From positions 62,001 through 126,000 of the forward strand of contig RXJW01000024.1 in assembly GCA_003963005.1 (NCBI GenBank): a DNA stretch of 64,000 bases, written 5' to 3'. The notes beneath the pieces were generated by a model. It made no database searches and was not told the DNA's origin. It worked only from the letters and a program-made list of their open reading frames with translations. Source of the stretch: Burkholderiales bacterium (lineage in GTDB: Bacteria > Pseudomonadota > Gammaproteobacteria > Burkholderiales > Burkholderiaceae_C). Made by a program: the position numbers and the translations under genes. The number at the start of each line of letters is the position of its first letter. Positions within the stretch are counted from its first letter, which is position 1. This document shows, piece after piece, positions 38,285-54,344 of the stretch.

Positions 38285-38370
38285 GGTGTCGGGCAGCCAT
38301 GCGGCGGTCGCGTGTCGGGGGCTGTTGCGGAGAGCCTTTCGACTGGGCGCAGCCTTGTTTCGGGCGCTTC

Positions 38371-38955
38371 TGCCAAGAGTCTTTCCACTCGGTGCACCGT
38401 GCCGGGAATCCCGCCCGGCGGCGGGGTAACTTTTCGCTGCTGCGCCAGAGAAAAGTCACCAAAAGAGAGGCGCTGAACCGCACACCAGCGGGCTGGCGCA
38501 GAGGCTCGTGCGCGAACACCTCCGCTCGTGGCGTTCGCCGAAGCGACCCGCTGCGCTCTCGCTGCTGTCCCTGTCACGAGCGTCACGGATCGGACCGTCA
38601 CCACAGTTAACGTCGGCTGCACGCCGAACTCACGAGTGAACGCACCACACGCATCGACGCGCCGTCGACGGCGCTTGTCTTGTGACTCGTGAGTTCGGCG
38701 TGCAGCCGACGTTAGGCGCACGGACGATGGATGAGTTCGGGCCTTCACAAGGACAGCAGCGAGAGCGCAGCGGCTCGCCTCGGCTGAGAAGCTGAGCGCA
38801 CGTTTTCGCGCGCCGCCCTTCGCAGGCTCTGGGCGACTTGCGGTTAGCGCCTCTTCTTTGGTGACTTTCTTCTGGCGCAGCAGAAGAAAGTTACTCGCCC
38901 GCCGGGGCGAACTCCCGGCACGGTGCACCGAGTCCCTGAGGCTCTGAGCAAAAGC
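38371..38955. repeat. Palindromic element, copy A
   Basis: A roughly 585-bp imperfect palindrome fills most of the 724-nt gap between the AAA+ ATPase stop (39009) and the cargo gene start (38284). Its core is a perfect 30-bp inverted repeat (38608-38637 with 38685-38714, starting TAACGTCGGC and ending GCCGACGTTA) around a 47-nt loop. The outer arms pair as well: AGTCACCAAAAGAGAGGCGC near 38454 with the complement of GCGCCTCTTCTTTGGTGACT near 38847, and CGGTGCACCGTGCCGGGA with TCCCGGCACGGTGCACCG. A partial extra copy of the terminal sequence (GCGGAGAGCCTTTCGACT) is at 38327-38344. Small frames inside it are not genes. The element is nearly the same as copy B at 51766-52352, in the same orientation. 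Confidence 0.9.
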
Positions 38956-39008
38956 CCCCCGACAACCCATGCCCCGAGCCGAACGGCTCGCTGCAGGAGC
39001 GCACCAAC

Positions 39009-40916
39009 TCACAACCGCCCCAGCGGACACAACCCACCCCCTCTCCGGTACTCCCTCTGCAACGCCTCCAACACCCGCGCCGCATCGACAGGAACGCCGC
39101 CAGCCAACGCCGACGACACCGCGTCCAGCACCACATTCCTCACCTGGCCACCCGCCAGCGCGCAGGCCTCGGCCACCACCGCCAGTTGCTCGTCGCTCAG
39201 CGCGTGATCGACCGGCAGATGCGCGCGCCACAGCCTCAGCCGCTCGGCCACCTCCGGCGCGCGGAACGGGATCACGACATCGAAGCGCCGCATGAAGGCG
39301 CTGTCGATGCGGGCCTGCGCATTGGTCGTCACGAGCACCAGGCCGCGGTGGCTTTCGAGCCGCTGGAGCAGGAAGTTGGTCTCCAGGTTCGCGTAGCGGT
39401 CGTTGCTCGAACCCACCTCCGTGCGCGGCGCGAGCAAGGCATCGCCCTCGTCCAGCAGCAGCATCACGTCCAGCGCCTCGGCAGCACTGAACAGCCGATG
39501 CAGGTTGCGCTCCGTCTCGCCGATGTACTTGCTGACCACCGCCGACAGGTCGAGCCGGAACAGCGGCAGGCCGAGGTCGCGCGCGAGCACCTGGGCGGCC
39601 AGCGTCTTGCCGGTGCCGGAAGGCCCAGCCAGCAAGGCGCGCACGCCGGCATGGAGCCGCGCGGCGAAGGCGGCGGGCAGCGTGTCGCGCAGGCGGTCGC
39701 GCTGCTGGCAGCGCGCGGCCAGCGCGGCAAGATCGCGGCGCAGCGTGTCGTCCAGCACCAGCGCGTCCGGCGGCGCCTGGGCCGGGTCGAGCCGTTGCGC
39801 CAGCCGCGCAAGCCCGGCCGCGCCGCCGGCCAGCGCCGCCTCGCGCACGGCCGCTTCGCCCTGCACACCGCGACGGCTCAAGGCGCGCCACAGGTGACCG
39901 CAGGCCAGGTGAAGCCGCCCGGCGAGTGCCGCGGCATCGGGCAGGTCCGGCCGGGCACGCTCGATGAGCCGGCGGCGCTGATCGAAGTCCGGCAGCGGCA
40001 GGTGCAGCACGAGCGCGCCCTCCGGCAACCCCTCGATGCCGTCCTCCTCGCCCGCCACCACCGCAAAGCCGCCCGGCAGCTCGGGCAGGCGCAGCGATTC
40101 GCCTGGCAGCACGTCCACGCGCAGCAACGGCAGGGCACCGGTGAGTGCCGCCAGTGCCGCCAGCGTCGACGGTGCGGGCCGGTCGGCACCCAGGCGCCAC
40201 AGCAGCACGGGCCGGCCCGACTCGCGCGCCAGCGCGGCCGCCAGCGTGCGCCGCCCGTTGTGCTCGGGCCCGCGCAGCAGCAAGGGCTGTCCCGGCTGCC
40301 ACTCGGCCAGCTGGGCCTGCGTCCGATCCGCCAGCACCAGATCCTGCAGACGCGCGGCAGCTTCGGCCGAATGCAGCCGCAACCCGGGCGCCGGCTCGGC
40401 ATCCGGCTCGCCGCGCAGGGCTGCCCAGCAGGCGTCATCCACCTCGAAGCGCTGCGTCGACCGAGGCTGCCCCGGCGACTCGGCGCGCAGCACGCCGGCC
40501 TGCAGCAAGGCCCGCAGCCCCGGCCGCAAGCCTTGGCCCGGCACATTGCCGAAGGCCTGCTGCAGCCACGCCGGGCCCGGCTGCGGCCCGGATTCACCCA
40601 GCGCCTCGTTCATCGCCTCGAACAGCGGACCGAAGCGCCGGTCCTCCTCCACCAGGCCATGCACCAGCCACAGCTCCACCGCGTGCGCCGGCCAGCCCCG
40701 CGCGAGCTGGGCCAGGCCGGGATGCACCGGCAGGTCCTCGGGCAGCGCTTCAAACGCGGCCGCGTGATCGAGCACGAAGGGGAAGCGCTCGATCAGCAGC
40801 GCCTCGCCCAGCAGCGCCTGCGCACTGCCCAGCACCCGCCACGCCGCAGCCAGCAGGAGGGCGCGCAGCGCCGTGGCCGCTTCGGGCCAGAGCTCGGGAG
40901 GGGTGTCGGCGCGCAT
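39009..40916 (-). CDS. eCIS AAA+ ATPase
   Basis: A 635-residue ATPase. The N-terminal 430 residues are a variable, Ala/Leu-rich domain that includes a degenerate first nucleotide-binding region (LLLRGPEHNGRRTLAAALAR). The C-terminal AAA+ domain has Walker A LAGPSGTGKTLAAQ near 430, Walker B VMLLLDEGDA at 484-493, sensor 1 LVTTNAQARIDSAFMRRFD with arginine finger and a helical lid. Such ATPases occur in almost all eCIS loci (Afp15-like) and may help assembly or disassembly of the particle. The start at 40916 overlaps the stop of the upstream gene (TGATG). Palindrome A follows, so the ATPase closes the middle transcription block. Confidence 0.9.
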   Translation of the reverse strand: MRADTPPELWPEAATALRALLLAAAWRVLGSAQALLGEALLIERFPFVLDHAAAFEALPEDLPVHPGLAQLARGWPAHAVELWLVHGLVEEDRRFGPLFEAMNEALGESGPQPGPAWLQQAFGNVPGQGLRPGLRALLQAGVLRAESPGQPRSTQRFEVDDACWAALRGEPDAEPAPGLRLHSAEAAARLQDLVLADRTQAQLAEWQPGQPLLLRGPEHNGRRTLAAALARESGRPVLLWRLGADRPAPSTLAALAALTGALPLLRVDVLPGESLRLPELPGGFAVVAGEEDGIEGLPEGALVLHLPLPDFDQRRRLIERARPDLPDAAALAGRLHLACGHLWRALSRRGVQGEAAVREAALAGGAAGLARLAQRLDPAQAPPDALVLDDTLRRDLAALAARCQQRDRLRDTLPAAFAARLHAGVRALLAGPSGTGKTLAAQVLARDLGLPLFRLDLSAVVSKYIGETERNLHRLFSAAEALDVMLLLDEGDALLAPRTEVGSSNDRYANLETNFLLQRLESHRGLVLVTTNAQARIDSAFMRRFDVVIPFRAPEVAERLRLWRAHLPVDHALSDEQLAVVAEACALAGGQVRNVVLDAVSSALAGGVPVDAARVLEALQREYRRGGGLCPLGRL

Positions 40917-42640
40917 CACCGGAAGCTGAATCGGAGGTTGAGGTCGGCGCTGGGCAGCCAGCCCGGGTCGCGGTCCAGCCCGGCCAGGCGCCAGGCCACG
41001 TCGTGGTCGGCCAGATCGAACACCACCTCCCACGCCGCCACACTCACCCACACGCGGCAGGGCCGTTCCCGGTGCAGCGCCGCCCGCCACTGCCGCGGTG
41101 CCAGGCCCAGCCGTCGGCACAGCCGCTGGCGCAGGCGCCGCGCGTAGGCCGGCAGCCAGCGCGACCACGACCCCGGCGCCACCCCGGGTGCCGCGGGCAT
41201 GGCGCCCATGGCGGGCGCGGGCTGCCAGCCGCCCGCCTGCGCCACGAGCAGCACCTGCAGCGGGTCGGGCGGCAGGCGCCAGGCCTGGGCCAGCGCAGCG
41301 AGGAGTGCAGCGATCGGCACGGGCAGGCCCGGGTCCAGCGGCCGCGTGAAGTCCGGGTAGAGGCCATCCTCCAGCAGCACGTTGACGAGGAACAGCAACG
41401 CGCCTTGGTGCGACACCTGCGCCTCGGGCCAAGGCCACACCGGCGGCGCTGCCTCGCTCGCTTCGGTCGGCGGCGCGTCAGCGCTCGATGCCGCGGGGTG
41501 CCTCGGCCACGGGTGCACGGCTGGCGCCGTGGTCGGTGCTTCGGCGAGCCGCAAGCGCGGGGGATCGGCGGGCTCTGGCGCTGGCGCCGGGCCTGCACGC
41601 CACGGCGTGTCGCGCTGCTCCGCCTCGTGCGGTGTAGACGGCAGTCCGGTGGACGGCGCCGTCTGCACGGACGGCCCCGCCGCCCGCCCGGGCTCTGCCG
41701 ATCGAGGCTTGCGGGGCGCGTCCATCGCTGGCGTCGCTGCATCGCGGCGCGATGACGCGAACTCGCGTGGGACACGAGGCGCCGCGCCGCTGACGTTGGC
41801 CGCCTCAGGTGCGGACGCAGCCGGGGCATCGGCCCGGCGGTGGCCCAGGCCGGGCACTCGCGGCGCCTGAGCGTCCACCGGCGGCAGACCTTGCGAGGAC
41901 CGCGTCAACCGCTGCGGTGCGCCTGCAACGGAGGTCGGCGTCCCGTGCCGCCGGGCCCGGTCGCCCGACGCCGGCCGCTCGGTCACGCCACGCCCGTCCA
42001 CATCCCCAGGCCATGCCAACGCCGCCCCTCCCGCCTCGAAGACCGCCCCGGCGGCCCGCGGTGCGCCGCTGATCGGCGGCACGACCGCCGCCGGCAGCGG
42101 CCCCACGGCCATCGGCTCGGCCCGCGGCGCAGCCGCCCCCGGTGCGGCGCTCGCACGCCCGGCCTGCGCGAGCAGACGGCGGGCGCCCGCCTGCGCCCAG
42201 GGGCGTTGCGCCCACGCGGGCGTCCACGCCGGCCAGCGCGTCCCCAGCAGGCCGCGCCACCACCAGCGGTCCAGCTGCCCGGCCTGGGCCGCCAGCGCGA
42301 GGCAGGCGAGCATCTCGGCCTCGTCGGCAAACAGCACGGCTTCGGCATCCGGCGGCACGGGGCCCAGCGCCGGGCGCGCGGCCCGGGCCAGCGCGGCATC
42401 GAACTGCTCGCGCCCCTGCGCGACCACCGCGTCATGCCCGGTCCTCACGCGCCGCAGCGCAACCGGCGGCACCTCGATCGACAGCCGCCGCAGCCACAGG
42501 AGGGCCTGCGGCGGCAACGAGCGGGGCAGCGCGTCGTCCAGGTCGGCCGCCAGCAACTGCAGCGCCAGGCGCGCCGCCACCGGCTCGACCTGCGCCGGCA
42601 ACCGCGCGCGGTAGCGGTGAATGGCCAGGCTCGCGGCCAT
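40916..42640 (-). CDS. Ala/Pro-rich eCIS-associated protein of unknown function
   Basis: A 574-residue protein with a helical N-terminal domain (residues 1-160; VEPVAARLALQLLAADLDDA), an extended Ala/Pro/Arg-rich low-complexity middle (about 165-430) and a compact C-terminal domain (QGALLFLVNVLLEDGLYPDF; WLPAYARRLRQRLCRRLGLA; ending AGLDRDPGWLPSADLNLRF). The C-terminal domain looks like one that recurs next to AAA+ ATPases in eCIS loci, but I cannot name it with certainty. Since no typical tape-measure gene is visible in the window, this is one place to look for it; the domain plan does not strongly support that. Overlaps the ATPase start by 1 nt and begins 2 nt after the upstream stop. Confidence 0.75.
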   Translation of the reverse strand: MAASLAIHRYRARLPAQVEPVAARLALQLLAADLDDALPRSLPPQALLWLRRLSIEVPPVALRRVRTGHDAVVAQGREQFDAALARAARPALGPVPPDAEAVLFADEAEMLACLALAAQAGQLDRWWWRGLLGTRWPAWTPAWAQRPWAQAGARRLLAQAGRASAAPGAAAPRAEPMAVGPLPAAVVPPISGAPRAAGAVFEAGGAALAWPGDVDGRGVTERPASGDRARRHGTPTSVAGAPQRLTRSSQGLPPVDAQAPRVPGLGHRRADAPAASAPEAANVSGAAPRVPREFASSRRDAATPAMDAPRKPRSAEPGRAAGPSVQTAPSTGLPSTPHEAEQRDTPWRAGPAPAPEPADPPRLRLAEAPTTAPAVHPWPRHPAASSADAPPTEASEAAPPVWPWPEAQVSHQGALLFLVNVLLEDGLYPDFTRPLDPGLPVPIAALLAALAQAWRLPPDPLQVLLVAQAGGWQPAPAMGAMPAAPGVAPGSWSRWLPAYARRLRQRLCRRLGLAPRQWRAALHRERPCRVWVSVAAWEVVFDLADHDVAWRLAGLDRDPGWLPSADLNLRFSFR

Positions 42641-42642
42641 GG

Positions 42643-43914
42643 TCAGCCACGCCGCCGGTCCGGCGCCTGCGTCAAGGCCGATGCGGCCACCGACAGTTCC
42701 TCCGCCGACGGTCCACCATCGCGCCCCTTGGCCTGCCGGCCCCGTGCCAGGATGCGCGCGGCCTCGCTCGCCACCCGGGCCGAGGTGCGCTCACCGAGGC
42801 CGCCGGGGCGCGCCCGATCGACCGGCTCGCCGGTCGTGCGCAGCAACAGCCGTTCAGGATGTCCCTCCAGCTGTGCGAGGTGCAGCCGAGCACCGGTACG
42901 GCGCAACGGCACGTCCTGCCAGCCGTCCTGCAGTGCGCGGGCGAACTGCGTGCGGCCCAGGACCTCGGCGTGGTCCGGCACTTCATGGCGCATCAGCTGG
43001 TGCAGGCGCTCATACTGCACGCGGTTCAGCGGCAGCGTGGGCGGCAGCCAGACGAAGGCCTCAGCCCCGGGCGCGTCACTGCCCATCAACTGTGCCAGGA
43101 ACTGCGCGGCGAACGCCTGCATCTCGACCGCCCAGGACTGCGGCCACATCGCATCCCCTGCCTCGCCCGGTGGCGGAGCGAGACGCCGGCGGGCGCTGTC
43201 GGTGTCGATCCACAGGGGCTCGGCCCTGGCATCGATCTGCAACAGCGCCAGCGGCAATTCCTCAGCCGTCAGCCCCGGTGCCGCCGCACCGCCACCGATG
43301 CGCTGGCGCATCCACCAGCCCACACGGGCGGTGTCCGGCACGGCCGTGAGGCCTTGCCCGGGCGACAGCAGCGCCACCGCCAGCTCGTTGCGCACACTGT
43401 CGGCGCCCAGGGCTGCCGGTGGCTGCACCTCCACGAGCCGCGCCCGCACGGCAGGCTGCTCGGTACGGCGGTTGCAGGCCCCCACTTCGCCCAGCAGCGT
43501 CGCCGCCCGGCCCTGGCCCGCCCACACGGGCGTCAAGGTGAGCAGGTACAGGCCGGCCAGCGGCTGCCCTTCGGCCAGCCCGGCCGCGCAGTTGCCGAAG
43601 CCGCTGAACGACGCGCCGCGGCCGGCGCTGCTGAGGTCCAGGTGCAGATTGCCGATGTCGATGACCGCCCCAGACGGCGTGACGCCCAGCCCGGCGCTGA
43701 TCTGCAGCACGCTGCCACTCCCGGTCGTCACCGACAGGCCTTCGGCCACGCCACAGCCGATCAGCCGCGCCAGGCGGCTCTCGGCGCCGTCGCGTGCCTG
43801 CTGCTCCCGGCTCAGGTCTTCCGCACTGAGCAGGCGGCCGTTGAAGAAGAAGCTGCGCGGCTCGCCCTCGACCGCGATGACCTGGTTCAGCCGGGCGTTG
43901 AGCACGGTGGCCAT
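42643..43914 (-). CDS. eCIS-associated protein, sister of the fibre-like protein
   Basis: A 423-residue protein. Its N-terminal domain (PRSFFFNGRLLSAEDLSREQ, then RLIGCGVAEGLSV and a beta-rich stretch ending SAGLGVTPSGAVIDI) is homologous by eye to the N-terminus of the next protein (YTFGMVLGVDDFRQEHAYLA, IGYGIITGLGV, VAPGLALMPDGHLVGV). The C-terminal part is helical and charged, ending in SALTQAPDRRRG. I cannot assign a biochemical function. The position between baseplate genes and the ATPase suggests a baseplate or fibre-attachment component. The gap to the fibre-like gene is 3 nt and to the following gene 2 nt, so it is inside a tightly packed operon. Confidence 0.78.
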   Translation of the reverse strand: MATVLNARLNQVIAVEGEPRSFFFNGRLLSAEDLSREQQARDGAESRLARLIGCGVAEGLSVTTGSGSVLQISAGLGVTPSGAVIDIGNLHLDLSSAGRGASFSGFGNCAAGLAEGQPLAGLYLLTLTPVWAGQGRAATLLGEVGACNRRTEQPAVRARLVEVQPPAALGADSVRNELAVALLSPGQGLTAVPDTARVGWWMRQRIGGGAAAPGLTAEELPLALLQIDARAEPLWIDTDSARRRLAPPPGEAGDAMWPQSWAVEMQAFAAQFLAQLMGSDAPGAEAFVWLPPTLPLNRVQYERLHQLMRHEVPDHAEVLGRTQFARALQDGWQDVPLRRTGARLHLAQLEGHPERLLLRTTGEPVDRARPGGLGERTSARVASEAARILARGRQAKGRDGGPSAEELSVAASALTQAPDRRRG

Positions 43915-43917
43915 GGC

Positions 43918-46365
43918 TCAAGCCCGCCCGATGATCAGCCAACCGGGGAACGGCAGGTTCGCGGCCGAGGCCAGCGTCACGCTCTGCCCGCGAGCCAGGC
44001 CGATGGCGATGGTGTCCGTGCCGACCGACAGTCCGTTGATCCCCAGCCGGTTGGCGGTCACGTTGGTCACCACGAGGATGCGCCCGTCACCGATGCGCGC
44101 CGTGCGCGGGTTGGGCAAGTTCAGTGAGCCGTCCACCAGCACGGCCAGCACCATGTCGCCATCGCGCAGCAGCAGCTCCTCGACCTTGGCGACGTAGCGC
44201 ATCGGCCAGCGGGTGATGTCGGTCGGTGCGGCGGGCTGAGTCAGCACCAGCTGCCCGTCCTGCTTGCGCCAGCCGACGACGGCATCGGCCTTGTCCACCG
44301 GCGGGCGCGTCAGCGCCAGGCTGTCGAAGCGCGGCGACGCCGCAGGATGCAGCGGCTGAACGGTGTCGATGGTGACGACCGCGCCGTCGGTGACCGCTGT
44401 GAGGCTTGGCGGGTTGTCGGCATTGCCCGCTGCGACCACGGTGGTCGCCTGACCGCCGCCGCTGGCGTCGATGCTCAGCTCCAGTTGCCCGCGGGCGACG
44501 GTGCGCAGGTTGACCTGCGTGTTCTTGCCGCTGACGAAGGTCGCCAGCGCGTAATCGCCACCTCGCGGGTTGCCGCTCTTCACGCCGACGAGCATCTGCA
44601 TCGGCGCGGGGCGGCTGGACAGGCCCGTGCCACCGTCCTCGATGCGCACCGGCGCCTTCTCGCCGGGCGCATAGACGTAAGGCGGCACCGCGCCCTTTGC
44701 CAGGGCCTGCTCATCGCCATCCCAGGGCCGCGCGGCGACGACCGCGCCGCTGTCGTCCGTGGCGAGCAGGCTGTTCAGCGGCGTGCCGAGCACGAGGCCG
44801 CCATCCACCGACAGCGCCCCCGACACATGCACCTTGCCGCCCACCGTCAGGCTGCCGCTCAGGTCCAGGCCGGCGAATTCGGGGCTGGCGGTCGGCCCGA
44901 TGTCCTGCACCGTGTCCAGGCGGATCGTCGGCGCCTGGGCCAGGTCGACGAGGATGTTCGGCGACGGGCCCGCCGGCTTGCTCAGCGTGTCACCGATCAG
45001 GCTTCCCAGCTCGAAGCTCGCCGCCCCCCCGGGCGATGCCGCACGGCCCACCAGCAGCGCACCCGTGGCGGGCGCCCCGTTCTGGCCGGTGCCGCCATCG
45101 GCCACCGGGATGGGCTGGGTCATGTCGGGCCCGTAGTAGTCGGGCTTGCCGAGCGCGCCGCCACCCGGCCACTTCACGGCCGGCGCCACGATGGCCTTCA
45201 GATCGCCCGGCGCAGCGCCGTCGGTCTTGTCGGCCACGATGTCGATGCGCGTCATCGCATGGTCGCGGGTCTTGAAGTCGGCCAGCAGGTCCTGCGCATG
45301 ATCGAGCGCCGGATCGCCCTTGCCCAGCACGAAATGCGCTTCACGCGGCGCATCCTGGCTGCCGTCGCGCAGCAGCCATTCCTGCAGCAGGCGCAGGTGC
45401 AGCAGCTGCGGCCGGCCCAGCATGCGCACGCCGCGGGCGCCACCGGCACCGGCCTTGGCATCGATGGCGGCGAGCAGCACCGCACGCTCAGCGACCGGCT
45501 CGGCCACCGGCACCGGGCCGTGGTGGGCCATGAAGCCGCTGCGCAGCAGCCGCGTCCAGACCTCGAAGGCCGCCGCGTAGTAGGCCGCCAGTTCGGCCCG
45601 CGGGATCTGCAATTCCTTGGGCGGCGCCGGCAGGCTGACCTCGCTCGGATCCGGCAGCGCGGGCGTGGCGGCGGCGGGCATCGCGGGCGTGGGGGCGTGC
45701 GGGTCGCCCCAGGCCTTGGTGATGGCTTCCTTGAGCCCGGCCTCGACCTGCGCCTGGAAGCTCGCCAGCGTCTGCCCGGCCGGCGCCGTGGCACGCACCT
45801 TGATGCCGCGGATCCAGGCGACGACGGCGCGCAGGGCCAGGTCCTCGGTGGCATCGGGCGGCGTCCAGGAGAAGTCGAGTGCGAAGCTGTCGGCGATGCG
45901 CGCATCGGCGCTCAGCTCGCTCTCATCCCGGCAGGGCTCGCCGGGGATGGGCACCGGCGAGCCGCTGGCTTCGGCATAACGCAGCAGGACATAGACGGTG
46001 GTCTTGGTGGCGGTGGTGGCGTCGCGGGCCAGCTCGGCATCCAGCCAGGTCTGCAGGTTCGCACACTGCTCGGCCGCCACGCCCACGAGATGACCGTCCG
46101 GCATCAGCGCGAGCCCGGGGGCCACGCGCACCTGCTGCCCGTCGCTGGCGGAAGCGGGCTTGGGTGCCGTCACCCCCAGGCCGGTGATGATCCCGTAGCC
46201 GATCGTCTCCCGCAGCGCGCGCTCGTCCCGGGCAGCGAGGTAGGCATGCTCCTGGCGGAAGTCGTCCACCCCGAGCACCATGCCGAAGGTGTAGTTGACG
46301 CGTTGCAGCGGGTCCAGCGCCGCATCCGGCGCGGGGGTGAAGGTGGAGCCTGTGCAGCAGCCCAT
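43918..46365 (-). CDS. eCIS tail-fibre-like protein
   Basis: An 815-residue protein. The N-terminus MGCCTGSTFTPAPDAALDPL is followed by the domain shared with its neighbour (residues about 24-85). A helical middle part follows (about 230-380). The C-terminal half is beta-rich and repetitive with two fibre-type DGGTG repeats (IPVADGGTGQNGAPATGALL and VRIEDGGTGLSSRPAPMQML), like phage tail fibres such as those of Mu and P2 type. The end is a beta stretch (TDTIAIGLARGQSVTLASAA). It probably projects from the baseplate and binds the target surface; the N-terminal domain would be the anchor. An AGGAG ribosome site precedes the ATG at 46365. Confidence 0.78.
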   Translation of the reverse strand: MGCCTGSTFTPAPDAALDPLQRVNYTFGMVLGVDDFRQEHAYLAARDERALRETIGYGIITGLGVTAPKPASASDGQQVRVAPGLALMPDGHLVGVAAEQCANLQTWLDAELARDATTATKTTVYVLLRYAEASGSPVPIPGEPCRDESELSADARIADSFALDFSWTPPDATEDLALRAVVAWIRGIKVRATAPAGQTLASFQAQVEAGLKEAITKAWGDPHAPTPAMPAAATPALPDPSEVSLPAPPKELQIPRAELAAYYAAAFEVWTRLLRSGFMAHHGPVPVAEPVAERAVLLAAIDAKAGAGGARGVRMLGRPQLLHLRLLQEWLLRDGSQDAPREAHFVLGKGDPALDHAQDLLADFKTRDHAMTRIDIVADKTDGAAPGDLKAIVAPAVKWPGGGALGKPDYYGPDMTQPIPVADGGTGQNGAPATGALLVGRAASPGGAASFELGSLIGDTLSKPAGPSPNILVDLAQAPTIRLDTVQDIGPTASPEFAGLDLSGSLTVGGKVHVSGALSVDGGLVLGTPLNSLLATDDSGAVVAARPWDGDEQALAKGAVPPYVYAPGEKAPVRIEDGGTGLSSRPAPMQMLVGVKSGNPRGGDYALATFVSGKNTQVNLRTVARGQLELSIDASGGGQATTVVAAGNADNPPSLTAVTDGAVVTIDTVQPLHPAASPRFDSLALTRPPVDKADAVVGWRKQDGQLVLTQPAAPTDITRWPMRYVAKVEELLLRDGDMVLAVLVDGSLNLPNPRTARIGDGRILVVTNVTANRLGINGLSVGTDTIAIGLARGQSVTLASAANLPFPGWLIIGRA

Positions 46366-46376
46366 GGTCGTCTCCT

Positions 46377-49094
46377 CTAGCGATCAAGGCCCACGCGGTC
46401 CGGCGGGGGCAGCGGACGCGGGTGGGTGAGTTGGGCGCCCCCAAGGTCGCGCTCGCCGAGCACGAGGGGTGGCCAGATGGATGTGCCCGCCAGCGCCGCG
46501 AGTTCGGGGCGGCGCAGCAGGCCGTGTTCGAGCCGCGTGTCGTGCCCCAGGCGCGCCTCGCCGACGCGGAAGAGCTCGAAGCCGAAACGGATCTCCGCCA
46601 CGGTGTGGGCGGGCTTGTCGCGCGCGACGGCGCGCTCGACCGCGGCGCGGCGGCGGGCGAGTTCGTTGAAGTCCAGCGACTCGGCGGCGGGCAGCGGCAG
46701 CACGATGCGGAAGCGGTGCGCCGGCCCGAGCGCACGCACGATCTGGGCTTCGAAGCGCCACCAGTCCGCGAGCGGCACCGAGCCGGCCGGCAGCGCCAGC
46801 GGGCTCGGGATGCGATCGAAACGCCGCCAGGCCGTGCCCCAGGCCGCATTCAGGGCGCCGATGCGGCGCCAGCGGCGGGCCAGGTAGTCCTGCCAGCGCT
46901 GCCGCAGCGGCGCGCAGGGCTGGGTGGCGCGCAGGTAGTCGTCGAACGCAGCATCGCGCGGCTGCGGCTCATCGTCGGGCAGGTCGGCGAGACGCCAGGA
47001 CGCCATGAGGCCCGCCTCTTCCTGCGCGCCACGCGGCAGGAATCCGAGTGCCGCCTGGAGCTGGCTCCCATCGCCCAGCAGCGACTCCTCGCCGGCCAGG
47101 GCCGACAGCAGGACCGCGCGCCCCTGCGCCGGCCGCCAGGCCTTGATCGGCAGCGGCGGCGCCAGGCCGAACAGCTCCTGCAGGCGCACGCCATGGGGCC
47201 GCTCCGCCAGGCCCTGCGGTGCGGCCAGGAAAGGCTCCGCGTCGACCTCGTCGGGCTCCCAGGCCAGCGTGGCCGCCAGCAGCAGCCCCGGCACCGTGCC
47301 GCGGCGCGCATGCACGCTGGCCGCGTGGCGCAGCAGCGCACGACGGCGCGCCGGGCCGTTGGAACCGTCGAACGTGAGCGCCAGCCACTGCGCGAGCCAG
47401 TCCAGCGTTTCGCGCGGCGCGGTGCGGGCATCGAGCAGCAGCTGGGCCGCGGCGATGCGGTCCTCCCAGCGGGTCAGCTCGCCTTCAAACAGCGCGAGAA
47501 AGCGGCCGGTGAAGTCGGCGCTCGCCGGGTCCGCACGGTAGACGGCGGGCAAATAGTGCTGCAGATAGCTGAAGCGCGGGTACCAGGCCCGCAGCGAGGC
47601 CAGGCCGGGGCTTTGCTGGCCGTCGCCGGTGACGAGCAGTCGCAGCTGAAGGTAGCGGCCGGTGGCGGCCTGCAGCAGGCAGGTCAGAGTCTGCAGTTCG
47701 GTGCAGGCCGTGGCGGTGGGCTCGCGCCAGGGCAGCTCGGGCCCGCCGGGGTGAGGCAGCAGCGCGGGCTCGTCCTGCCACGGCTGACGGCTGAGCGCCT
47801 CGGCCGAGTCGGCCGCGCGGCTCTGCAGCCGCAGGGCCGTGCCTGGCGGGCGGCGGGCATCGAGGGCCACGCGGTGCCACACACAGGCCGTCGTGGCACT
47901 GTCCCACACCGGGCTGAGCAGCTCACCCTCACGCTCGCAGCGCGGGCGCGGCAGCGTCAGCAAGGGCAGCCAGCGATCCATGCCGGCGTAGAACACACGC
48001 GCCGCAGGGAAGCGATGCAGCACCTGCCCCGGCGCCAGGCTCGCCAGCCCGCCGGCCTGGTAACGCCGCAGCGGGATGAACTCGCGCTGCAGTTCGAACT
48101 GCCAGTCACCGCCGGCCGAGACACTGGCCGCGAACCGGAAGGCCTGGTCGCCGCTGGCCGCGAGCAGGAGCACATTGAAGCGCTCCGGCGCCAGCCATTC
48201 CAGCGCCAGCGTGCGGCTGGAGAGCAAGGTGGGCTGCTGGTCGGCCGTGGCCTGCTCCAACTGCTCCTCGAGCGGCCCGAAGGAGCTGGCCTCGTGACCG
48301 GCCCAGTCCAGCACCGACAGGTACAGGCCATCCATCTGCAGGCGAAGCACGAGGACATGCCCACCGGACAAGGCCGCCACGGCGGTCGTGCCGGCACCCA
48401 GCATCAGCTGGCAGGGCGGCTCGGCCGGTGCAGGGTCCGGGGCAGCCCCCGGCGCGAAGGCCGAGGGCACGGACACGCGCGGCACGCAGGGCTTCAAGTC
48501 CGCGCCCAGGCGGTGCAGGCGGCCGGCGGCGAACAGCGCCACGCCACCGTCGTCCAGCGCCAGCAAGGCCTCGGGAACGGGCATGCCCGGCCAGGGCTGC
48601 ACCAGCGGCGGACCGCCACCGTGCAGGTCGAAGATGAGCAGGCCCTGCGCAGCCACGCTGGCGACGACGAGGTAGTGCCCCGTCGTCACGGTCAGCGCGT
48701 CCATCACGAGCGGCGCCACCGGCGATGCGGGCGAACACGGGCCGAAGCCACCCGGCGCCTGGGACTTCGGCGGGTCCACCAACGGCCAGAAATCGGTGAT
48801 CGTGCCGCTGCCGCTGGACCAGACGCGGATGGCCGTGCCGCTGGCATCCAGCGCGTACAGATTGCCGTAGGCATCGAACACGCCGCCGGCCCGCGAGCCC
48901 GGCTCCGGCAGGACGGCCCCGGCACCAGCCTTGAACTCGAACAGCAGCGGCTTGAGCACGAGCTGCCCCAGCGCCGCAGGCGCTGCCGTGTCGTCGGCCA
49001 GCCACGCCCAGTGCGGGTCGGGCTGCGCATGCAGCAGCCAGTCGTCCCGGGTGACCAGGGCGTGAAAGCGGCTGCCGTTGGCATCCATCAGCAA
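46377..49094 (-). CDS. Phage tail protein I-like (TIGR02242) baseplate protein with propeller-like N-terminal half
   Basis: A 905-residue protein. The first 480 residues resemble a beta-propeller with repeated strands such as GGVFDAYGNLYALDASGTAI and ALLALDDGGVALFAAGRLHR. From about residue 525 comes the tail-protein domain: YLQHYLPAVYRADPASADFT, FLALFEGELTRWEDRIAAAQ and LDWLAQWLALTFDGS, the conserved core of TIGR02242/gpI proteins. The remaining part (about 640-905) has further helices and LPAAESLDFNELARRR. It should sit at the baseplate periphery and link wedge to fibres. The start overlaps the stop of the TIGR02243 gene by 7 nt. Confidence 0.85.
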   Translation of the reverse strand: MLMDANGSRFHALVTRDDWLLHAQPDPHWAWLADDTAAPAALGQLVLKPLLFEFKAGAGAVLPEPGSRAGGVFDAYGNLYALDASGTAIRVWSSGSGTITDFWPLVDPPKSQAPGGFGPCSPASPVAPLVMDALTVTTGHYLVVASVAAQGLLIFDLHGGGPPLVQPWPGMPVPEALLALDDGGVALFAAGRLHRLGADLKPCVPRVSVPSAFAPGAAPDPAPAEPPCQLMLGAGTTAVAALSGGHVLVLRLQMDGLYLSVLDWAGHEASSFGPLEEQLEQATADQQPTLLSSRTLALEWLAPERFNVLLLAASGDQAFRFAASVSAGGDWQFELQREFIPLRRYQAGGLASLAPGQVLHRFPAARVFYAGMDRWLPLLTLPRPRCEREGELLSPVWDSATTACVWHRVALDARRPPGTALRLQSRAADSAEALSRQPWQDEPALLPHPGGPELPWREPTATACTELQTLTCLLQAATGRYLQLRLLVTGDGQQSPGLASLRAWYPRFSYLQHYLPAVYRADPASADFTGRFLALFEGELTRWEDRIAAAQLLLDARTAPRETLDWLAQWLALTFDGSNGPARRRALLRHAASVHARRGTVPGLLLAATLAWEPDEVDAEPFLAAPQGLAERPHGVRLQELFGLAPPLPIKAWRPAQGRAVLLSALAGEESLLGDGSQLQAALGFLPRGAQEEAGLMASWRLADLPDDEPQPRDAAFDDYLRATQPCAPLRQRWQDYLARRWRRIGALNAAWGTAWRRFDRIPSPLALPAGSVPLADWWRFEAQIVRALGPAHRFRIVLPLPAAESLDFNELARRRAAVERAVARDKPAHTVAEIRFGFELFRVGEARLGHDTRLEHGLLRRPELAALAGTSIWPPLVLGERDLGGAQLTHPRPLPPPDRVGLDR

Positions 49095-51280
49095 TGCTCC
49101 GGCACGCGCGGCACGGGCAGGCGCAGCCGCGGCGGCACCGTGTCACCGTCGTCGGTGCCGCCGGCGTTCTGGCCCACCAGGTCGGACAGCGGCACGGGGT
49201 CGCCCAGGGACACCGACAAGCCGGCAATCAGCGGCAGCTGCAGCCCGGCCATGGGCACGCTGTCCCGCTGCGCGCCGGCGGAGTCGCCCAGCAGCAGACC
49301 CGTCACGCCGAGCACGCCGGGCACACGCGCCGCCACCGTCGCCAGCTCCAGCGCCGCCACGGCCTTGAAGAGCGGCCAGCCGCTGCCGCTGTCGCCGGGC
49401 AGCGGCGCAAGGAACGTCTTCAGCGCCGCCTTGACCTGCTCGCGCACCTCGGCCACGCCCTGCCCTGCGTGCAGCTCGATGCCCACGCTGATCCACACGC
49501 CCGCATAGGCCGGGCCGCGCAGCAGCACCTCGCAGGTCACCAGGCGGCGCGGTGCGAGGTGGGCGCAGACGGCGTCGATGAAGTCGGCATCCGGCAGCGG
49601 GTAGTCCGGCCGGCGCGGGTCCTGGCGAGGGATGAGCAGGCAGGTGACGACGCCCGGCTGGTCGCCCGGCAGGCCGGGTGACAGCTCGGGGTGCCAGGCC
49701 GGCAGCACCTCCACGCGGCCGACGTCGGCCTGCGGCGTCTCGCGGATGATGGCGTCGAAGTCGTCGGCGCTGACGGCGCGGTCACGGTGACGCAGCACCA
49801 GCGGGATGCGCTTCTCGCCGTCGGCCGCGCTCTCGGCTTCGAGGCCGCCCTGCGCGGCGCGCGGGTTGGCCACCTTCACGCCGGGGGGCAGCGTCGGCCC
49901 CAGCTTGATCGCGCCGGCCGCCACATTGCCCGCCGCGCCGGACGCCCAGTCGAATCGCACCGCGATCTCGGCGCCCGCCGGCGGCCGCGCACCGCGGGCC
50001 CCGTCACCGAAGCGGATCTCGCCGCTCTCGGCATCCAGCGCAAACACCTGTGCCCCGGGCTGCCCCTCGGGCGGCGCAGCTTCGAGCTCGTCGGTCAGAT
50101 CCCAGATCTCGCCGGCCACGCGCAGCTGCACCGAGTCGGCCAGCACCTGGCCCTGGCTGAGCCGCCGGCGTTGCTCGGGCGAGCCGTCCCCCGGCGGCAG
50201 CAGCTCGCGGCTGACGCGGCTGCGCTGGCGCACGACGGCGCAGTGCGTGCCGGCCCAGTCGAGCTGCACGCCGGCATTGGCCAGGCCGTCGATGCGCAGC
50301 CAGGTGATCAAGCGTGCAGCCAGGGCCTCGTCGGTGAGCTGGGGCGGCAGCTCGCCCACGCCCGCCTCCAGCGGCTCGGCCTCGGCCCAGGTGCCGATGT
50401 CACCGGCCTGCGCCGGCAGCGTGACTTGCAGGACGCCCGCCTGCTGCGGAAAGCCGGTGGGCGCCACCGCATCCAGTCGACGGTACTCACCCGCTGTGCC
50501 GCTGCCGCTCGCACTGGCCTTGGGGCACCAGGCACTCAGCGCGGGCGGTGGGACCGCGGATCGCCCGGGCTGCAGTCGCGCACGCGTCTCGGGCGGATGG
50601 GGCACCAGGCCGATGGACAGCGTGCGACCGGCGAGTTCCGCCCGCGCGTTGGCGAGTTCGGCCGGCGTCGGCTTCGGGGGCGCGAGCAGCGCGATCCACA
50701 GCGCCCCGTCCACGGTCTGCGCGCCGATGTCCAGCGGCCCCGGCAGGTCGGCGAGTTGCACGCTGTCGTAGAGCACGGGCTCGACGTCACCCGCCGCATC
50801 GCTGCCGGCGAAGTCCCGGCCCGTGGCTTCGTAGAGCTGGCGGTAGTAGTCCAGCACCGCCGGGTCGACCGGGCCGCTGGTGCGCTTGAACACCACGAGG
50901 CCGGCCACGGGCGGCACGTCAAGCCCGGTGTCGCTCAGGAAGGGCACGGCGCCGGCCAGCAGCGGCACGCCCGAGGGCAGCGTGATCGTCTTGCGCGCGC
51001 CGGCCTCGTTGCTGAACTGCACCAGCGCCCGCGCCGGCTGGGCGGGCCGCAGGCCGATGCCCAGCAACTGCAGGAATTTGAGCCGGTTGCGCTCGGGAAT
51101 GAGGTTCGCCCGGTACAGCAGGCTCTCGGCCATGAAGGCGAACAGCTCGACGAGCGTGACACCGGGATCGCTCGGGCCGGTGTGCGTCCACTCCGGCGCA
51201 TGCACGGCGGCCAGCGCGAGTGTGTCGCGCACGAGCGCGGCATGGTCGCGGTCGTCGATGGCGGGCAGTTGGAGGGGCAT
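49088..51280 (-). CDS. Putative baseplate assembly protein (TIGR02243, gpJ/Afp11-like)
   Basis: A 730-residue baseplate wedge protein. The start MPLQLPAIDDRDHAALVRDT and the block EWTHTGPSDPGVTLVELFAF near residue 35 are the hallmark of TIGR02243 proteins. NLIPERNRLKFLQLLGIGLR follows, and the second half has IRFGDGARGARPPAGAEIAV and LVLRHRDRAVSADDFDAIIR, which belong to the J-type wedge domain. With gp25 and the gpI-like protein it would form the wedge of the eCIS baseplate. It starts 6 nt after the gp25 stop. Confidence 0.92.
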   Translation of the reverse strand: MPLQLPAIDDRDHAALVRDTLALAAVHAPEWTHTGPSDPGVTLVELFAFMAESLLYRANLIPERNRLKFLQLLGIGLRPAQPARALVQFSNEAGARKTITLPSGVPLLAGAVPFLSDTGLDVPPVAGLVVFKRTSGPVDPAVLDYYRQLYEATGRDFAGSDAAGDVEPVLYDSVQLADLPGPLDIGAQTVDGALWIALLAPPKPTPAELANARAELAGRTLSIGLVPHPPETRARLQPGRSAVPPPALSAWCPKASASGSGTAGEYRRLDAVAPTGFPQQAGVLQVTLPAQAGDIGTWAEAEPLEAGVGELPPQLTDEALAARLITWLRIDGLANAGVQLDWAGTHCAVVRQRSRVSRELLPPGDGSPEQRRRLSQGQVLADSVQLRVAGEIWDLTDELEAAPPEGQPGAQVFALDAESGEIRFGDGARGARPPAGAEIAVRFDWASGAAGNVAAGAIKLGPTLPPGVKVANPRAAQGGLEAESAADGEKRIPLVLRHRDRAVSADDFDAIIRETPQADVGRVEVLPAWHPELSPGLPGDQPGVVTCLLIPRQDPRRPDYPLPDADFIDAVCAHLAPRRLVTCEVLLRGPAYAGVWISVGIELHAGQGVAEVREQVKAALKTFLAPLPGDSGSGWPLFKAVAALELATVAARVPGVLGVTGLLLGDSAGAQRDSVPMAGLQLPLIAGLSVSLGDPVPLSDLVGQNAGGTDDGDTVPPRLRLPVPRVPEHC

Positions 51281-51286
51281 GACGGT

Positions 51287-51685
51287 TTACCTCCCCTGGA
51301 CGGGAATGCTCAGGCTCATGCGCCCGGTCTGGGCGGTGGCGACGAGCGTGAAGCTGAGTTCTGCCATGGCCGCCTCGGGGTTGGTGGGGTCGGCGGCGAC
51401 CTTCAGCGCCTCCACCTGCACCCGGGGCTCCCACTTGGCGAGTTGGCGGCGGATGACCTCCTCGATGGCACGCCAGGTGGTGGGCACGTTGGGCTCGAAC
51501 AGGAAGCGCTCCAGGCCGGCGCCGTAGTCGGGGCGGCGCAGCCGCTCGCCCTGAGCGGTGAGCAGCAGCAGGCGGATGGACTCGCGCACATTGGCCTCGC
51601 CGCTGCTCCAGGCTAGGCGACCCTCGGGGGTGAGGCGCAGGGGGAAGGCCAGGCCGCGGCCGTAGAGGGCGGCTTCGTCGGTCAT
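51287..51685 (-). CDS. GPW/gp25 family baseplate wedge protein
   Basis: A 132-residue protein with the gp25 fold: GRGLAFPLRLTPEGRLAWSS, VRESIRLLLLTAQGERLRRP and the conserved DYGAGLERFLFEPN block, which forms part of the T4 gp25-like core that nucleates sheath polymerisation. It is the first gene after palindrome B and so opens the baseplate block of the operon. The neighbouring TIGR02243 gene begins 6 nt later. Length and motifs are standard for the family. Confidence 0.94.
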   Translation of the reverse strand: MTDEAALYGRGLAFPLRLTPEGRLAWSSGEANVRESIRLLLLTAQGERLRRPDYGAGLERFLFEPNVPTTWRAIEEVIRRQLAKWEPRVQVEALKVAADPTNPEAAMAELSFTLVATAQTGRMSLSIPVQGR

Positions 51686-51765
51686 GGGTGGGCTCCCGGT
51701 GCTCGTTTGGGCTGGAGGCTTTTGCGGAGAGCTGGAGGCTGGCGCCGTGCAGCTCTCGGGGCGCT

Positions 51766-52352
51766 CTTGCGGAGAGCCTTTCGACTCGGTGCACCGCCGC
51801 GGGAATCCGCCCCGCGATGGCGGGTCACTTTTCTCTGCTGCGCCAGAGAAAAGTCACCAAAAGAGAGGCGCTGAACCGCACACCAGCGGGATCGCGGCAC
51901 GGCTCGCACGCGAAAACCTCCGCCCGTGGTGTTCGCGGAAGCGACCCGCTTCGCTCTCGCTGCTGTCCCTGTCACGAGCACCAGCCGTCGCGCCTTCACG
52001 CCCGTTAACGTCGGCTGCACGCCGAACTCACCAGTAAACGCACCACACGCCTCGACGCGCCGTCGACGGCGCTTGGTATTGCACTCGTGAGTTCGGCGTG
52101 CAGCCGACGTTAGGCGCACGGACGGTGGATGCATCGGGCTCGTGACAAGGACAGCGGCGAGAGCGCAGCGGCTCGCCTCGGCTGCGGAGACGAGCGCGTG
52201 TTCTCGCGCGATGTAGGTCGCAGGCTCTGGGCGACTTGCGGTTAGCGCCTCTCTTTTGGTGACTTTTCTCTGGCGCAGCAGAGAAAAGTTACCCGCCATC
52301 GCGGGGCGGATTCCCGCGGCGGTATACCGAGTCGAAAGGCTCTCAGCAAAAG
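51766..52352. repeat. Palindromic element, copy B
   Basis: A 587-bp imperfect palindrome in the 706-nt gap between the hydrophobic-tail protein gene (stop 52392) and gp25 (start 51685). The core is a perfect 26-bp inverted repeat (52006-52031 with 52087-52112) around a 55-nt loop. The ends also pair: GAGAGCCTTTCGACTCGGT at 51772 with ACCGAGTCGAAAGGCTCTC at 52326, with GCGGGAATCCGCC/GGCGGATTCCCGC just inside. The extended match to copy A, including CTGAACCGCACACCAGCGGG in the left arm only, fixes the same orientation for both copies. A partial end-like sequence (GCGGAGAGC) lies further out at 51724. No gene is inside. Confidence 0.9.
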
Positions 52353-52391
52353 CAATCCAAAGCCCCGGAGCTGACGACAAGACACCCCTCC

Positions 52392-54344
52392 TCATGGCTT
52401 CTTCCCCTTCAACCCCGGCACCGGGAAACACACCATCAGAAACGGCAACCACCGGAAGATCAGATCCAGCAGCGTCGCAATAACAATCAGGAGAATGAAG
52501 GCCACGATCGTGATGATCGGGATCGACAGCGAGCAGATCGTGCCGAAGCTGCTCGCCCCCGACCCGCCGCAGGGCCCGCCGTCGGGCACCGACAGGTCCT
52601 TGTGAAACGGCCACGGCAGCACCGACAGCACCAGGTCGCCAAAGCCCAGCCGCCGCACCCGCTTCATCTGCCCGCACAGCAGGTCGCTCATGATGAAGGC
52701 GCTGTTCTTGCCGTATTTGCGCAGGCCGCCGGGCGAGGTGTCGAAGGGCAAGGCGATGCGGATGGGCCGCAGCGGCGCGTCGACATCGAAGAACCCGGCC
52801 AGCTCGAAGGCCTCGCTCGGGTCGGACATCACCGCCGGATGCAGCGGGCCGCAGTCGCAGCGCTGGTGCACGAAGCGCAGCACATAACGCGGCGGCCCGG
52901 CGTCATCCTTCAGCGTGGCTTCCAGTTCGCGTGCCAGACGCGCGGCGTCGGGCGCCTGCGGCCGTGCGGTGCCCGCCACGCCCGCAGCGACGGCTTCGTC
53001 GATGGCAGCGTCCAGCGCTGCCTGCAGCACCAGCAGGTGGTCGTTGGCTTCGTCCTGGATGTCGTCGAACGCCGAGCCCACGTGGGGCCAGCGGGTGAAG
53101 GGCCCCTCCAGCACACCCGAGGCCGTGGCGATGGCCAGCGGGAAGGCGAAGGTGGGCCACGCGCCCGCATCGGGCGGGCGGGGGAAGGACACCGAGGCCT
53201 GGTCCAGCGCAGCCGACACCGTCGCGATCGCGGCCAGTGCGGCGCGCAGGTCGGTCACCGCCGTGGTGCTGCGCTGCGGCGCCGTGACGGCCGACGAGAA
53301 CACGTTCTGGAACGCCGCCTCGGTGCGACGCACCGGCAGGAAGCTCGCTGCCGCGAGCTTCAGCAGCAGCTGCTGCGCGGCCCCGCGAGCGGTCGTGCCC
53401 CCACCCAGTCGTGCATGCACTTCCGGCAGATGCGCGGCGAGCCATTCGTTCATGTCCTGCAGCAGGCGCCAGGAAGACTCCTGCAGCTGGTCGTTCGCCG
53501 CGGGCAGGGCGAGCTTCAAGGCTTCGGCGCGAGCGGCCGTGTCGTTGCTCCAGGGCGTGTTGACCTGCGGCTGCCCCGTGGCGTCGCGCGTGGCCCGGGC
53601 CCGCTCGATCAGGCCCTGCCACGGCGCGATGAAGGCCATGCGGGCACTGGCCTTGAGGTCGTCCGCCACGGTGGGCGGCGTGGGCGGTTGCAGCGGCGCG
53701 AAGCGGAAGTCGTCATGCCGCGCCGCGGGAATCAGGCCTGCCAGCAGCTTGCGCGGCTGGCCATCGGGCGAGGTGTAGGCCAGCGGGAAGACCGACAACC
53801 ACTCTTCGCCGGGCAGCGGCTGGCGGGCATCGGCGAGCGGCTGCCAGCGCCCCGGCTGGCCCGGGCGCTTCACGAAGCCTGCCTCGCGCGCACCCGGCAG
53901 CAGGCGGCGCAGCAGCATGCCGCTGCGGTCGCCCCCGGCGGTCGTGCGCGTGGGCAGGCCGGGCAGCTCGCACACCAGGTGGGCCGCCGCCACGTAGAAG
54001 CGTTGGTGCACCGGCTGGAAGAGCTTGAGTGGCAGCACGGGGGCGGGCGCAGGCACCGGCACCGTGCGCTTGAACCCCAGCAGGCCGCGCTGCCGCACCA
54101 GGGCCCGCGCGGGTGCCGACGTCGGTGCGGCGAGCGCCGGCGCGGGCGTGGGCTCGCCGAGCTGTTGCCAGGACTCCGGCCGCGCCGCGAAGCTCGGCAA
54201 GGTCTGCGGCGCCTCGGCCAGCACGGCGAGCAGCCGGTCCATGAAGTCGTCGCTGTCGAAGCGCAGCAACGTGGGCACGGCGTTCACCGGCGCGGCCACG
54301 AAGCTCTGGCCGCCCACCCAGCGGAGCACGTGCTTCGCACTCAT
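52392..54344 (-). CDS. eCIS-associated protein with hydrophobic C-terminus, unknown function
   Basis: A 650-residue protein I do not recognise. The start at 54344 (MSAKHVLRWVGGQSFVAAPV) overlaps the spike gene stop by 4 nt. Residues about 75-130 contain Pro/Ala linkers; residues 300-490 are helical. A Cys pair stands in VHQRCDCGPLHPAVM. The segment LRKYGKNSAFIMSDLLCGQM precedes a C-terminal stretch with a long hydrophobic segment (ICSLSIPIITIVAFILLIVI, then LLDLIFRWLPFLMVCF) and a basic end GLKGKKP. This could anchor the protein in a membrane or be buried in the particle. It closes the first block before palindrome B. A longer frame upstream only reads the spike gene in another frame. Confidence 0.75.
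   Translation of the reverse strand: MSAKHVLRWVGGQSFVAAPVNAVPTLLRFDSDDFMDRLLAVLAEAPQTLPSFAARPESWQQLGEPTPAPALAAPTSAPARALVRQRGLLGFKRTVPVPAPAPVLPLKLFQPVHQRFYVAAAHLVCELPGLPTRTTAGGDRSGMLLRRLLPGAREAGFVKRPGQPGRWQPLADARQPLPGEEWLSVFPLAYTSPDGQPRKLLAGLIPAARHDDFRFAPLQPPTPPTVADDLKASARMAFIAPWQGLIERARATRDATGQPQVNTPWSNDTAARAEALKLALPAANDQLQESSWRLLQDMNEWLAAHLPEVHARLGGGTTARGAAQQLLLKLAAASFLPVRRTEAAFQNVFSSAVTAPQRSTTAVTDLRAALAAIATVSAALDQASVSFPRPPDAGAWPTFAFPLAIATASGVLEGPFTRWPHVGSAFDDIQDEANDHLLVLQAALDAAIDEAVAAGVAGTARPQAPDAARLARELEATLKDDAGPPRYVLRFVHQRCDCGPLHPAVMSDPSEAFELAGFFDVDAPLRPIRIALPFDTSPGGLRKYGKNSAFIMSDLLCGQMKRVRRLGFGDLVLSVLPWPFHKDLSVPDGGPCGGSGASSFGTICSLSIPIITIVAFILLIVIATLLDLIFRWLPFLMVCFPVPGLKGKKP

Follow-up and report, generated by a model that had tools for sequence, protein, structure and literature searches.

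What are two palindromes of nearly 600 bp doing between the genes of an operon whose parts otherwise lie close together? The window analysed here, a stretch of 64,000 nucleotides from the Burkholderiales bacterium assembly GCA_003963005.1 (contig RXJW01000024.1, positions 62,001 to 126,000), carries an extracellular contractile injection system (eCIS) operon that is divided by such palindromes into three blocks. The initial annotation considered several roles for them, from uncoupling or swapping of these blocks to a mobile, dispersed element. Comparison of genomes argues that the dispersed-element reading is right and the eCIS reading is not. Each element is a modular palindrome composed of tips, a GC shell, a hairpin with a third tract, and a core, followed by the same parts in reverse, and is usually located just behind a stop codon. 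The repeats, of two kinds named F1 and F2, occupy corresponding junctions in several species, some of these junctions holding fragments only. Their sequence is more alike within a genome than per site across genomes, to the point that an F2 core can stand where F1 does in other species. As a whole explanation, to which we give an even chance, these elements would form a family of repeats, non-coding and non-autonomous, that acts as DNA.

A repeat family dispersed in the genus

Both eCIS palindromes belong to F1. Seven full F1 copies were found in the genome of the window (G000), plus some short pieces (40 of 54 candidates scored), and further copies occupy many unrelated junctions of the genus, as expected of a mobile or dispersed element. 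When 60 genomes were searched with F1, including 20 of the genus (G000 itself and others such as G001 and G019, the latter being R. puraquae), 20 matched at E 1e-5 or better: 18 of the 20 genus genomes versus 2 of the 40 outside the genus, the outside matches being short. At most 10 candidates were scored per genome in this search, so that copy numbers are low estimates. Pieces longer than 450 bp came from 13/20 genus genomes, and some genus genomes gave short matches alone. The second family, F2, has an outer shell in common with F1 but a different core. With at most 29 candidates scored, it matched 18/20 genomes of the genus at E 1e-10; in the order at large, 12/398 other genomes matched at E 1e-8 (2 candidates scored in each). 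Some of these order-wide loci carry palindromes that repeat this arrangement of shell and hairpins, whereas others hold unrelated repeats or none; the layout also occurs at L037, a locus from the F1 search, and such palindromes measure 420 to 764 bp. A pattern for the inner stem occurred in 51 stretches of named genomes, mostly labelled Roseateles or Pelomonas, with a few in metagenome-assembled genomes labelled Rubrivivax, Methylotenera or Comamonadaceae; by this resemblance the host is assigned to the Roseateles-like group. We recognised no description of the F1/F2 palindromes in published literature surveyed at title and abstract level, and Rfam 15 gave 0 matches in the window at gathering score.

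Several draft contigs start inside F2 palindromes (G017:C111, C103 and C120; G004:C76 and C19), and the repeats seem to break assemblies. All four full family palindromes of the R. puraquae contig G019:C12 lie within 128 kb (1155767-1284116).

This distribution bears directly on the idea that the palindromes form a device of the eCIS itself, serving to uncouple its three blocks or to swap them. Five close eCIS loci do have palindromic material or remnants at both junctions (F1, F2 or remnants, depending on the species), as such a device would have it. However, the same families lie at dozens of unrelated junctions, including those of flagellar-export and ABC-transporter operons, and the distant eCIS loci of G002 and G013 have 9-nt gaps before gp25. 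The genome-wide distribution thus already largely refutes a dedicated device, which we regard as highly improbable. Deletion of the middle block, which had been envisaged as a consequence of the direct repeats, was not seen: both junctions are 11.6-12.4 kb apart on one contig in G005, G010 and G017 (in G001 they fall on different contigs, where deletion cannot be judged). An effect on eCIS expression, if any, would be a side effect of the position between its genes.

Shared junctions with different contents

The 112 elements with flanks represent 66 sites, 17 of which are common to different genomes, and 4 of these 17 hold both cores; four junctions, including 3 of the 4 mixed-core sites, were fetched on purpose, so that these rates are biased. 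At the gp25 junction of the eCIS operon, F1 is found in G000 and G010, F2 in G017, a small one-hairpin palindrome in G001 and about 65 bp of tips in G005. The F2 copy of G017 occupies this site though its genome gave no F1 match (10 of 71 candidates scored). The eCIS ATPase junction holds F1 in G000 and G010, F2 in G017, and short remnants in G005 and G001.

Two junctions outside the eCIS operon were compared more widely. Between fliQ and fliR (Bac_export_3 and Bac_export_1; 20 genomes), full F1 copies are present in 4 genomes, tip remnants in G010 and G014, and other short gaps in G009, G007 and G012, while the gap is -4 to 25 nt in 11/20; the lengths obtained for G010 and G009 are too short, a start codon having been called inside the repeat or gap. 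Two separate gains are likely at this junction, because species between both groups have clean junctions (the positions of G004 and G007 in the species tree were not used). The ABC permease junction (BPD_transp_2) was compared in 18 genomes: 8 carry a full F1 copy and 2 a half copy, F2 occupies 2, and G004 has a shell arm; G007 is unreadable, its contig beginning within the gene. Four genomes have no element there, with a 4-nt overlap in G001, G006 and G015 and 49 nt in G003.

Judged by eye, part of a single shell arm survives in the remnants at fliQ (G010, G014) and in the G005 remnant at the eCIS ATPase junction. A scheme of nested growth, with the shell first and the core later, was set aside, since such one-shell-arm remnants fit deletion from full copies better.

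Concerted evolution or re-insertion

For the 51 F1 copies that exceed 450 bp, the mean difference is 0.157 between copies at other sites of the same genome (120 pairs), 0.268 between copies at the same site of other genomes (36 pairs) and 0.275 where neither is shared (1119 pairs). In 63/66 comparisons, a copy is closer to its nearest paralogue than to its orthologue. From these sequences, F1 copies appear either to evolve in concert or to be re-inserted. If sites are inherited, the likeness of paralogues implies conversion between copies; under re-insertion, it implies fresh copies. We favour the former, in which rare insertion would be followed by inheritance of the site, and gene conversion between copies would proceed via the common shell and hairpins.

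Re-insertion is the core of a possible, though rather unlikely, alternative: a miniature inverted-repeat transposable element (MITE), or an element like REPINs (paired repetitive extragenic palindromic, REP, sequences), moved in trans by an unrecognised transposase into the same preferred junctions in each lineage. The clustering of F1 copies by genome suits it, as do inverted tips (GCTTTTGC/GCAAAAGC), whose pattern gave 0 control matches in 7 genomes, though 3 of these 7 do not contain it in that form. Hairpins are also paired in inverted orientation: among the matches listed, pairs spanning 462-613 bp comprise 12 inward, 0 outward and 1 same-strand pair. Furthermore, filled ABC sites are flanked by ATGA on both sides, or by GTGA on one and ATGA on the other, whereas the empty sites of G001, G006 and G015 have a single ATGA common to the overlapping stop and start. 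Against this alternative, no autonomous copy was seen among the regions read, and the Y1_Tnp genes are not linked to family palindromes. Moreover, short flank words at the ABC site look, by eye, common to several species on both sides of the tree, as inheritance predicts, and this favours inheritance of the site there.

One pair of tips 1.7 kb apart (G010:C1) was examined as an autonomous version and rejected, since it encloses an insertion sequence (IS) with a DDE transposase inside an F1 copy. This IS lies at about 1480-2830 of L244 (G010:C1:71000-75500), with CTAA at its ends by eye.

Arms with a triplex-like layout

Most F1 arms run from a pyrimidine tract through a loop to the complementary purine tract, and then across a linker to a third tract, again of purines, which mirrors the second; this is the layout of a purine-motif intrastrand triplex. 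Two types occur, type A being GAGAAAAG followed by AAAAGAGA and type B GAAGAAAG followed by AAAGAAGA. Each keeps its own third tract, in 42 (A) and 83 (B) hairpin records without mixture, the tract being changed in 6 and 2 records respectively; overlapping hairpin registers are counted apart here, and the records share ancestry. One mirror unit per arm is present in 42 of 51 full F1 copies. In a strict scan (8-nt stem, at least 7 mirror matches) of 1.55 Mb of R. puraquae on both strands, all 4 sites found were arms of two F1 copies.

The layout extends beyond the genus. A pattern for the hairpin only, with the following bases left free, matched 36/399 genomes and 20/159 genera of the order, with 0 control matches. 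Of its 134 matches, 118 were listed and 2 of these dropped for N, leaving 116 usable; among them the mirror is 8/8 in 107 and 7/8 in 6, with 18 different linkers. The 112 listed rows that belong to the two asymmetric types have the exact mirror tract in 90 and 14 cases, an unmirrored tract in 0, and a changed or lost third tract in 8.

The impression that arms are always opposite in type (14/15 by eye) was weakened by the larger sample, in which 51 F1 copies comprise 31 unlike, 14 BB, 3 AA and 3 untyped. In 18 of the 24 unlike-arm copies that lie between co-directed genes, type A is the arm on the side of the upstream gene; copies at shared sites are not independent.

Purine-motif triplexes are described as unable to form in RNA, and such motifs as linked to instability, by Holder et al. 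(2015; PMC4666352). If the F1 units are of this kind, they would therefore act as DNA. The sequence suggests that F1 arm units may adopt a purine-motif intrastrand triplex fold when the DNA is single-stranded, and that such triplexes might stall polymerases and promote deletions and conversions.

Tolerance of long palindromes and points against the proposal

Bacteria generally maintain long palindromes poorly, and in E. coli such palindromes are cut by SbcCD. A search limited to the SbcD subunit gave 0/20 genus genomes above the curated cut-off versus 8/14 controls. A lack of the SbcCD nuclease may let long palindromes survive in this genus.

Several observations weigh against the explanation that we prefer. 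Weak SbcD matches occur in 9/20 genomes, the best being that of G012 with 58.8 bits versus a cut-off of 77.65. The agent of insertion was not found, and family palindromes are absent from the 1.5 kb on either side of each of the two Y1_Tnp genes in the genome of the window. The tree expected from conversion could also arise if copies were independently re-inserted at the same junctions. As for the arms, the thresholds of the mirror scan were chosen once the motif had been seen. A control scan of the same 1.55 Mb for direct repeats at the strict setting gave 2 sites, both in one F2 copy, and with a looser setting (7-nt stem, 6 matches) mirror and direct scans gave 6 sites each: 4 F1 arms, 1 F2 arm and 1 elsewhere for the mirror, 3 F2 arms, 2 F1 arms and 1 elsewhere for the direct repeat. 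The mirror signal is clear at the stricter setting only, and because the looser scan returns direct repeats as often as mirrors, our confidence is slightly lowered. Direct matching also attains 7/8 in 109 of the 116 usable rows listed, so that the contrast between mirror and direct repeat rests on about one position per unit. Finally, the mirror site is missing in 28/30 full F2 copies; this failure, together with the direct-repeat sites in F2, implies that F2 follows another rule.

Position relative to genes and effects on transcripts

In the first set of loci, predicted genes span 0 of 82 distinct hits. Of the 61 hits longer than 400 bp, 43 have co-directed neighbours, 11 convergent ones and 1 divergent ones, with 6 at locus edges; the 43 tandem cases lie at a median of 44 nt after the upstream stop and 65 nt ahead of the next start. 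For comparison, 366 of 20000 random 590-bp stretches of the R. puraquae contig C12 (1.55 Mb, 91.5% coding according to our gene finder) hold 60 coding bases or fewer. Divergent junctions are under-used (p 0.017 versus all junctions, 1.3e-4 versus gaps of at least 20 nt) and convergent ones show no clear over-use (p 0.08-0.10); these values assume independent copies, an assumption that shared sites violate.

Such placement could point to a role in RNA. An attenuator or processing site, acting as one long transcript hairpin or as a two-way terminator made of the GC shell hairpin and a pyrimidine tract, would lower downstream genes or protect upstream messages. The bias towards gene 3' ends, with 1 copy of 55 between divergent genes, agrees with this, although avoidance of promoters alone would yield it too. 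The very long RNA hairpin foreseen in the initial annotation is borne out by prediction: the two eCIS palindromes fold at -466 versus a shuffle mean of -258 (z -26) and at -406 versus -259 (z -21), with 0/100 shuffles as low for each. Terminator-like matches likewise exceed those of shuffles (4 versus a mean of 0.9, sd 1.2; 7 versus 0.6, sd 0.8), but the T tracts are interrupted by C. No promoter-like match was found. Changes that keep pairing tell both ways. In distant pairs, pairing-keeping double changes exceed the doubles expected, e.g. 14 versus 7.8 at gp25 in G000/G010, yet at such distance they could come from conversion too. Between close orthologues, changes are mostly single and pair-breaking: the fliQ copies of G002 and G013 differ by 11 broken and 5 kept pairs and 1 double, which is broken. 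Conserved RNA pairing of the arms, unsupported among close orthologues and mixed among distant ones, was therefore not retained. In addition, operons are kept in species without the element, as at the 11 close fliQ|fliR junctions described above. An action on RNA hence seems to us rather doubtful next to one on DNA.

The two copies in the eCIS operon

The two palindromes are where the initial annotation had placed them, within slightly extended aligned limits (Table 1), and their perfect inner stems are present as it described. They share one orientation, but 'near-identical' proved too strong, the identity being just 507/599 columns (85%). Both are palindromic nearly end to end: self-reverse-complementarity is 78% over the 591 bp of copy 2 and 74% over 547 bp of copy 1, and copy 1 with its flanks is 72% self-complementary over 38300-39022. 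The additional terminal sequence noticed on the left consists of a tip 45 bp beyond each element's own tip; tips also recur in tandem steps of 45-51 bp at some other places in G010 and G000. The left-arm unit of copy 1 has a single stem mismatch.

Table 1. Positions in the window of the two F1 palindromes, their parts and the flanking genes
Feature	Position	Strand	Basis
F1 palindrome copy 1, between AAA-ATPase gene and 1094-aa gene	38366..38955 (590 bp)	.	alignment
AAA-ATPase gene, flanks copy 1	39009-40919	-	codon-bias gene finder
1094-aa gene, flanks copy 1	35000-38284	-	codon-bias gene finder
Extra tandem tip beside copy 1	38321..38336	+	
GGTGCACCG near left tip of copy 1	38391..38399, again 38922-38930	.	
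Copy 1 left arm, type A: pyrimidine tract, loop, purine tract, linker, mirror purine tract	38428..38470	+	
Copy 1 right arm, type B unit, layout as left arm	38850..38891	-	
Copy 1 inner stem, perfect 30-bp arms 38608-38637 / 38685-38714	38608..38714	.	
F1 palindrome copy 2, between 650-aa gene and gp25 gene	51763..52353 (591 bp)	.	alignment
650-aa gene, flanks copy 2	52392-54344	-	codon-bias gene finder
gp25 gene, flanks copy 2	51287-51685	-	codon-bias gene finder
Extra tandem tip beside copy 2	51718..51733	+	
Copy 2 left arm, type A unit	51826..51868	+	
Copy 2 right arm, type A unit	52248..52289	-	
Copy 2 inner stem, perfect 26-bp arms 52006-52031 / 52087-52112	52006..52112	.	

Gene calls were made with our own codon-bias gene finder. 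The gaps at the palindromes measure 724 and 706 bp; the claim that all other junctions overlap or are a few nucleotides apart holds from 35000 to 63947 at 22 nt or less, save for one junction of 196 bp. The identity of the operon as an eCIS was upheld by matches to gp25, Baseplate_J, Phage_base_V, Phage_GPD, AAA and tail sheath. Neither the 1094-aa neighbour nor the gene upstream of copy 2 matched any Pfam or PHROG family.

Other palindromes were encountered. A different one, with GTTGCCACTCAAAAGCCCGCGAGCAAGGCGC, lies downstream of a distant eCIS ATPase (L152, G013) and also at G019:C12:1091919-1092123. Short intergenic palindromes rich in CACAGAG units recur in G019:C12 at 562629, 893268, 955323, 1119015, 1127318 and 1154235.

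Relation to known repeats

REP sequences, bacterial interspersed mosaic elements (BIMEs) and REPINs are, like F1, dispersed intergenic palindromes with inverted pairs of hairpin units and tandem terminal units. F1 differs in its length, about 590 bp versus 20-40 bp for REPs, and in that no linked gene for a REP-associated tyrosine transposase (RAYT) was found. Membership in REP/REPIN systems with a linked RAYT was rejected when a search of the genome of the window showed no palindrome near its two Y1_Tnp genes. MITEs resemble F1 in being non-coding and dispersed and in having inverted ends. They are generally under 200 bp (Holder et al., 2015; PMC4666352). F1 is distinguished from them by being palindromic nearly throughout, with no parent transposon seen in the regions read and no defined target duplication, the ATGA on both sides being found at one site.

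The closest likeness is to the PIT elements, BoxC and TM_ECO, as portrayed by Holder et al. (2015; PMC4666352): on one strand they too have pyrimidine, loop, purine, loop and mirror purine, and they are intergenic and repeated, with deletions at sites. F1 has the general layout of intrastrand triplex repeats, a Y-R hairpin followed by a mirror R tract. It departs from the TM_ECO/BoxC consensus given there, CCCTCNCCC(N3-6)GGGNGAGGG(N3)GGGNGAGGG, in that its tracts are, by reading, A-rich (CTTTTCTC and CTTTCTTC) and not CCCTCNCCC, and we therefore do not place it in that subfamily. Moreover, F1 units form an inverted pair within a palindrome of 0.4-0.7 kb that has an exchangeable core. F2 fits this type poorly.

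Implications

A bolder version of our proposal, which we think unlikely, would make these elements giant palindromic repeats of Burkholderiales whose triplex-folding arms copy cores between sites, such that 'docking' junctions with an old shell are rewritten genome-wide by the winning core in hosts lacking SbcCD. To us the most interesting findings are that one site can hold different cores in different species and that the arms carry mirror tracts, both computed from sequence alone. For work on eCIS, the two large gaps are repeats and not parts of the machine. The occupation of the same junctions in several species, combined with seemingly concerted sequence, offers a natural test case for the survival, conversion and shrinkage of palindromes. 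Lastly, the mirror relation between second and third tracts, in F1 and in the order-wide units, argues on evolutionary grounds that folding of the triplex type may be of consequence for DNA in living bacteria.

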